A DNA stretch of 64,000 bases from Bacillota bacterium. GTDB lineage: Bacteria; Bacillota; UBA994; UBA5500. Positions within the stretch are counted from its first letter, which is position 1; each line of letters starts with the position of its first letter. Under the pieces are notes generated by a model. The model searched no databases. It saw nothing but the letters and a program-made list of their open reading frames with translations, and had not been told where the DNA came from. Position numbers and translations under genes: made by a program. The stretch is from NCBI GenBank assembly GCA_029781045.1, contig JAKOXL010000034.1, positions 1-64,000 on the forward strand, given 5' to 3'. Positions 3,478 to 22,653 of the stretch are shown piece after piece.

Positions 3478-3830
3478 TGGTGGAGGCGGGGGGAGTCGAA
3501 CCCACCGTCCGAAGGCATGCCAGCCAGAGTCTCTCCGAGCGCAGTCCTTGCTTTAGATTTCGCGCAGCACGCCCCCAAGGACAGGGTCGTTACCTTGCTA
3601 GCCTATTAATTTCCCGACAGATACTAGGCGCTCTCTATCAGTAGTCTACTGTTCATGACGCCCGGGTCCAAACCCAGCAGACACAGTTTGGGTGGACGGC
3701 TGCCTTTATTTAGGCAGCGAGTGCTAATCTGTTGTTAGCGTTTATTTTGAAATTCCCTGTTTTACGGGTTCCAGGATCCCCGGCTCGCTACTCCAACCCA
3801 CACTACCCCCGTCGAAACCATGTCGCCCCC
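3478..3830 (-). ncRNA. ssrA: tmRNA (transfer-messenger RNA)
   Basis: tmRNA frees stalled ribosomes: alanine-charged, it enters with SmpB, its internal frame adds a degradation tag, and translation ends at its stop codon. The minus strand shows the 5' GGGGGCG (3830-3824), pairing in 7 bp with CGCCUCC near the 3' end, then an encoded CCA at 3480-3478. GGTTTCGACGG in the D-like region and GGTTCGACTCC in the T arm are diagnostic. The tag frame runs from resume codon GCT (3739) to TAA (3710) and encodes ANNRLALAA, so the full tag is (A)ANNRLALAA with the usual ALAA protease-recognition end. A GCTGCC/GGCAGC hairpin follows at the tag stop, as in other tmRNAs. The 353 nt length is normal. The 5' end is 12 nt after smpB. 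Confidence 0.96.
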
Positions 3831-21510: not shown

Positions 21511-21544
21511 AAAAAGCAGGAGGCTGCCCTCCGACAGCCTCCTG
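21511..21544 (-). terminator. Terminator of the tandem-repeat protein gene
   Basis: CAGGAGGCTG and CAGCCTCCTG form a perfect 10-bp stem (21517-21544); on the minus strand CTTTTTCC follows. It is 15 nt past the stop. Confidence 0.88.
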
Positions 21545-21559
21545 AGAACACTCTTCTAT

Positions 21560-22516
21560 TTAGCAATCATTACCCTGCTGGCCACCATAGGGGGAGGTTC
21601 CGCTCCTTTGGCTCATACCCTGCTGATAACCTATGTTGCGGTCAGCCTGCATTACCTGCGAGAGACCGCCCATACCACTTTGCATCATCTGTTCCGTCGG
21701 GGTGGTACCAATATTCTGGTTCGTACCCCAACCGGAAGTGCCGTACTGGCTGGACTGTTGATAGCCTCCATACTGGCTGCCATAGTGGCTGGTGGTCTGA
21801 CCATACTGGGGCATGCCATAGCTGCTACCAGTAAACTGTTGCCCTCCCTGATACTGGGGCTGGCTGGGACCATAGTAACCCACATTACGGTCGGCCTGCA
21901 TTACCTGCGGGAGACCACCCATACCGCTACGCATCATCTGTTCCGTGGGCGTGGTACCGATACCCTGGTTCGTACCCCAACCGGAAGTGCCGTACTGACT
22001 GGACTGTTGATAGCCTCCATACTGGCTACCATAGTGGCTGCTGGTCTGACCATACTGGGGCATGCCGTAGCTGCTACCAGTAAACTGTTGCCCTCCCTGA
22101 TACTGGGACTGGCTGGGACCATAGTAACCCACATTGCGGTCGGCCTGCATTACCTGCGGGAGACCACCCATACCGCTACGCATCATCTGTTCCGTGGGCG
22201 TAGTACCGATATTCTGGTTGGTACCCCAGTTGGAGGTACCATAGTTGCTGGTCTGCTGGTAGTCTCCATGCTGAGTGCCAAAGTGGCCAGTGGTCTGTCC
22301 ATATTGGGGCGTAGTGAAACCGCCACCGAAGGATTGCCCACCGCCGCTGCCCCCCTGGTACTGGAACTGACCCACATTATGGTCGGCCTGCATCATCTGG
22401 GGGAGACCACCCATACCACTTAGCATCATCTGCTCACTCTGAGTGGTACCGATGTTCTGGTTTTGGCCATAAGTCCCAAATTGGTTGGGCTGCGGCCGCT
22501 GAGATGAGTACTGCAT
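21560..22516 (-). CDS. Low-complexity Q/G/Y/S-rich tandem-repeat protein, function unknown
   Basis: A 318-residue protein dominated by Gln, Gly, Ser, Tyr, Thr and Met. I see no lysine, no signal peptide, no membrane segment, and a single Cys as the last residue. A core beginning NIGTTPTEQMM and running through SGMGGLPQVMQADRNVG occurs four times (starting near residues 21, 102, 185, 268), separated by spacers full of QYGG, SSYG and QYG motifs. The composition resembles prion-like or phase-separating domains and some spore-coat or adhesive proteins. GGAGGTG lies 11 nt upstream of the ATG, and a good terminator follows, so expression is likely. It was not recognised as a named family. It sits between nrdJ and whiA. 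Confidence 0.75.
   Translation of the reverse strand: MQYSSQRPQPNQFGTYGQNQNIGTTQSEQMMLSGMGGLPQMMQADHNVGQFQYQGGSGGGQSFGGGFTTPQYGQTTGHFGTQHGDYQQTSNYGTSNWGTNQNIGTTPTEQMMRSGMGGLPQVMQADRNVGYYGPSQSQYQGGQQFTGSSYGMPQYGQTSSHYGSQYGGYQQSSQYGTSGWGTNQGIGTTPTEQMMRSGMGGLPQVMQADRNVGYYGPSQPQYQGGQQFTGSSYGMPQYGQTTSHYGSQYGGYQQSSQYGTSGWGTNQNIGTTPTEQMMQSGMGGLSQVMQADRNIGYQQGMSQRSGTSPYGGQQGNDC
21600..22455 (-). repeat. Intragenic tandem repeat, period 249 bp
   Basis: Three 243-249 bp units plus a final core, all in frame (81, 83 and 83 residues). The two downstream units are near-identical at DNA level; the first is more diverged. Such arrays expand and shrink by recombination, so copy number may vary between strains, and short-read assemblies could collapse it. 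Confidence 0.9.
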
Positions 22517-22653
22517 TCTTTTGTTGCACCTCCATGATTAGTTGCATCAGCACCGGAGGGCGCGGCCTTGGCGCACCTGCCGTTGCCCTATGCATGTCAT
22601 CATGGATAATATCCCCCAATCTCCGCGGAGCATGCATTATCCTGGCAGAGAAA

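Follow-up and report, generated by a model that had tools for sequence, protein, structure and literature searches.

The gamma-type SASPs are Q-rich, repetitive proteins of spore-forming bacteria. CotG-like spore proteins of different species share a modular repeat architecture but no sequence homology (PMC9765600). In PYCO1, repeated stickers with Tyr motifs lie within a prion-like chain (PMC10288592), and the termination factor Rho of Clostridium botulinum contains a prion-like domain (PMC4703818, PMC6400439). Here we describe a repeat-protein gene in a 64,000-nucleotide stretch of DNA from a Bacillota bacterium (the window) whose product shares features with each of these systems. Like CotG of Bacillus, it is a tandem-repeat, lineage-specific and apparently disordered protein of a putative spore former; however, CotG repeats are 6 to 7 residues long and strongly positive, whereas those found here are about 80 residues long, nearly neutral (protein charge −3, no Lys), and built around a 29-residue core. 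Like PYCO1 and EPYC1, it repeats short conserved motifs on low-complexity spacers, a comparison that claims no sequence relation and sets a bacterial protein beside them. It resembles the Rho prion-like domain in being polar, Q-containing, and of low complexity, but in Rho this domain is one part of the factor, whereas here the whole chain is of low complexity and carries a conserved repeated motif. From gamma-type SASPs it differs in motif, size, and composition, with no family match.

The predicted open reading frame was recovered as 318 aa at exactly 21560 to 22516 on the reverse strand, with an ATG start codon 10 nt downstream of GGAGGTG (Table 1). Its product consists of 20.8% G, 18.6% Q, 10.4% S, 9.4% T, 8.2% Y, 6.6% M, and 4.7% N. 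Together, Q, G, Y, S, and T make up 67% of residues, compared with a mean of 24.5% (standard deviation, 2.8; maximum, 29.7%) in the 41 other long open reading frames of the window, and I, L, and V make up 5%, compared with 26% in the same set. This bears out the low-complexity, disordered-type composition originally proposed. Both charge and I/L/V content are very low, net charge is near neutral, and hydropathy (0.381) falls under the Uversky boundary (0.417); no signal peptide or transmembrane stretch is apparent in the sequence. AlphaFold2 returned a mean pLDDT of 38.7 and a pTM of 0.13 with no helix or strand element, but its alignment was shallow (three sequences only), and the absence of a fold is therefore weak evidence; the model is consistent with, but does not prove, an intrinsically disordered protein. 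Searches of Pfam, NCBIfam, PHROGs, and PDB gave sub-threshold matches or none, in agreement with the earlier view that the protein belongs to no described family. The gene has the same G+C content as its neighbors (0.56), and we rejected a recent foreign origin on this basis. A hydrophobic antisense frame of 271 aa (21608 to 22423, forward strand) runs over the repeats; the longest antisense frame in the relatives has only 126 aa, and the long frame is thus probably a by-product of repeat codon usage.

Table 1. Features of the repeat-protein locus in window coordinates.
Feature	Position	Strand	Details	Basis
Repeat-protein gene	21560..22516	−	318 aa	ORF call, orthologues, purifying selection
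Core copy 1	22370..22456	−	residues 21-49, NIGTTQSEQMMLSGMGGLPQMMQADHNVG	
Core copy 2	22127..22213	−	residues 102-130, NIGTTPTEQMMRSGMGGLPQVMQADRNVG	
Core copy 3	21878..21964	−	residues 185-213	
Core copy 4	21629..21715	−	residues 268-296	
Tandem array	21639..22310	−	period 249 bp, 2.7 copies, core plus Q/G/Y/S/T spacer	Tandem Repeats Finder
Ribosome-binding site	22527..22533	−	GGAGGTG, 10 nt 5′ of ATG	kept in orthologues
Intrinsic terminator	21517..21544	−	12-bp stem, then CTTTTT	
Conserved upstream element	22608..22647	−	TGCCnnnnTAATrCATG, about 14 nt, then GGGGATATTA or near it	
Conserved leader with hairpin	22523..22617	−	5′ CCAUGAU pairs with AUCAUGG	covariance model

The 249-bp array is the only strong one that Tandem Repeats Finder detected within the window (89% match). 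A first, diverged copy makes the core four-fold; the four copies originally described are present, but the core is longer than had been quoted, spanning 29 residues and beginning with IGTT (IGTTxxEQMMxxGMGGLxQVMQADRNxG). Each complete orthologue likewise carries four copies, and a contig-truncated one carries three. Across the 14 copies that we aligned from two genera, 15 columns are invariant. The core is under strong purifying selection, with a pN/pS between genomes of 0.18 overall (range, 0.07 to 0.24) at a pS of 0.66 to 0.79, which is near saturation. Core copies from a single genome resemble each other more at synonymous sites (pS of 0.43 in the window's gene), which suggests repeat turnover or gene conversion. 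Spacers keep their Q/G/Y/S composition while varying in length among copies and genomes (periods, about 73 to 102 aa), and residue-level constraint sits in the core rather than in the spacers. The orthologues also share a C-terminal tail, YNPGDTPIEQQAKQNLGVS or near it, which holds their only Lys; the window copy lacks this tail and ends instead in GNDC, with no Lys and its single Cys as the last residue. Because the orthologues carry one Lys and no Cys, the lysine-free composition and lone Cys emphasized in the original prediction are peculiarities of this copy and not family traits.

Orthologues are present in all four genomes searched from the window's own family, spread over two genera, and in none of the rest of a 399-genome phylum sample. 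Searches of 101 relatives, the 399 phylum genomes, and 15 class genomes all agree on this family-only distribution. A contig search found two relatives (CALNBW010000289.1 and a UBA5500 contig), which match G001 and G002, and no homologue was found in viral contigs, plasmids, or phages. Weak profile matches in G006 (E = 0.03) and G005 (E = 0.8) were read as chance; by eye, they fall in ABC-permease-like and carboxylase-like open reading frames, respectively. In the window, the gene lies between nrdJ (B12-dependent ribonucleotide reductase), upstream, and whiA, downstream, followed by rpoN and glycolytic genes, all on one strand. It directly follows nrdJ wherever the junction falls on a contig (the G002 copy is split across two contig ends). 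The next gene is whiA in all members of the window's genus, whereas G003, from the second genus, has three intervening genes (L058, 2405 to 6556), the first of whose products resembles a GlmL/MutL-type ATPase by eye. In family f3 of the same class, the slot between nrdJ and whiA is occupied by a bpsA-like gene (L054, 2099 to 3136; L055, 2651 to 3670; L056, 1853 to 2866), and a distant homologue in that slot was rejected accordingly. The f3 slot gene encodes a branched-chain polyamine synthase-like protein (BpsA_C), for which the window's genome has no match. Family f2 yielded no nrdJ match, and its one whiA neighborhood (G004) is unrelated. Most simply, a single origin or insertion of the gene in the family, followed by its retention, would account for these observations. 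Elsewhere, the window carries a tmRNA gene (3478 to 3830, reverse strand; Rfam RF00023, 177.8 bits).

The gene forms a separate transcription unit. Both the ribosome-binding site and the terminator claimed in the original prediction were found, and by eye G001 and G002 show comparable inverted repeats 3′ of the gene, rich in G+C and with T-rich tracts after them. In G002 and G003, nrdJ and the repeat gene are likewise divided by a terminator-like hairpin, so that there the gene needs its own promoter. An upstream element common to all four orthologue regions, whose first block occurs once per genome at zero mismatches, is a probable promoter or operator. Attempts to link it to a sporulation sigma factor failed. 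It has no clear match in the upstream regions of SASP genes and spoIVA. A candidate forespore pattern, CATR-N15-GGnATAnT, had 44 matches in the four genomes versus 20 for the reversed control; however, of the genes that could be named by eye downstream of the 30 loci examined (groES, 3-hydroxyacyl-CoA dehydrogenase-like, D-Ala-D-Ala ligase, and similar genes), none is a forespore gene, and the forespore-promoter reading was not validated.

The conserved leader between this element and the gene may fold into a hairpin whose outer stem covers part of the ribosome-binding site, with AUCAUGG overlapping the first bases of GGAGGTG. The long hairpin folds in the three congeneric genomes and is not the minimum-energy structure in G003; z-scores against shuffled sequences are −3.8 for the window, −3.2 for G001, and +0.6 for G002, which keeps the inner helices. 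In the alignment of the four leaders, both partners differ in 7 of the 19 pairs, and pairing holds in 86.7% of cells. None of 500 shuffles attains these figures, and slid versions yield 45% at most; with only four related sequences, from which the structure was itself derived, this covariation is no more than suggestive. The same four sequences were used to build a covariance model, which matches once per family genome, only at the repeat gene, and the leader has no meaningful Rfam match. The overlap of the outer stem with the ribosome-binding site makes control of translation or mRNA stability by the leader plausible.

A fixed motif recurring four times on spacers of fixed composition and variable length is the pattern of a sticker-and-spacer protein, a likeness that would concern the manner of working, not membership in a family. 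We see about an even chance that the gene encodes a lineage-specific, cytoplasmically made, disordered protein of this kind. By analogy, we infer a binding role for the core and assembly of the product. Most economically, the four 29-residue cores would bind each other or one partner, which may be the core itself, and the Q/G/Y/S-rich spacers would join them flexibly, providing reach and weak Tyr/Gln cohesion. One chain would then cross-link a number of partners to give a network, sheet, or condensate. The setting would be the spore, in the coat or another layer. It seems unlikely that the protein is a scaffold of an undescribed bacterial condensate or lattice type, with four stickers binding a specific partner and the leader hairpin gating translation.

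Much of the same evidence bears on other readings. Tandem repeats and a long antisense frame might have pointed to a spurious open reading frame or non-functional repeat expansion, to which we give negligible probability: four orthologues, a core pN/pS of about 0.18, a conserved leader, and terminators refute it. A functional amyloid or prion-like protein, in which Q/G/Y-rich spacers drive self-templated fibers and the core is incidental, would fit the residue composition, near-neutral charge, and low complexity, and it is this composition that suggests such behavior. At the level of single residues, however, selection preserves a short recurring motif and not a Q/N tract; N is scarce and G is high. 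We consider this reading quite unlikely. The composition, the separate transcription unit, the lack of a described family, and the endospore genes of the host make the earlier suggestion of a coat, matrix, or condensate protein a sensible one, but its prion and amyloid emphasis is not borne out. A storage protein akin to gamma-type SASPs, an amino acid reserve degraded on germination, would suit a Q-rich, repetitive protein in a host with spore genes, yet we consider it very improbable: it has no SASP family match in Pfam or NCBIfam, its exact core conservation exceeds the needs of a reserve, and Met, Trp, and Tyr are present or abundant.

Somewhat unlikely, but the most credible of these alternatives, is a cytosolic hub of growing cells rather than of the spore, which would concentrate an enzyme or RNA and be governed by the structured leader. 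The constant position after nrdJ, with whiA close by in the genus, is in its favor, as are a leader hairpin that may tune translation and the absence of the gene from spore formers of neighboring families. Against it, the nrdJ-whiA neighborhood exists in f3 with another gene in the slot, so that position need not imply function, and we saw no RGG or other known nucleic acid-binding motif in the protein.

Returning to the sticker-and-spacer reading, we prefer the spore (coat or another layer) as its setting, with a probability slightly short of even. The window's genome encodes SpoIVA (above the cutoff) and SASPs, by which a spore role is possible, the host being judged an endospore former from gene content only. 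Other families of the class have spore genes and lack the repeat gene, which is thus not a general spore component. We saw no cotH- or cotB-like gene beside it, and a transglutaminase cross-linking reading was rejected, as Tgl (PF20085) is absent from all 15 class genomes. We found no papers on Q- or Y-rich spore coat repeat proteins or on prion-like spore proteins. In our view, the protein represents an orphan family that is new and lineage-restricted but general in kind, and the conserved leader RNA that accompanies it was unexpected. If it is an ordinary lineage-specific coat protein, its interest is modest. It may mark a lineage-specific spore layer. As a disordered chain that bears four near-identical motifs and has divergent natural variants, it offers a compact natural system for learning how the task of assembly is shared between repeated motifs and low-complexity spacers in bacterial proteins.
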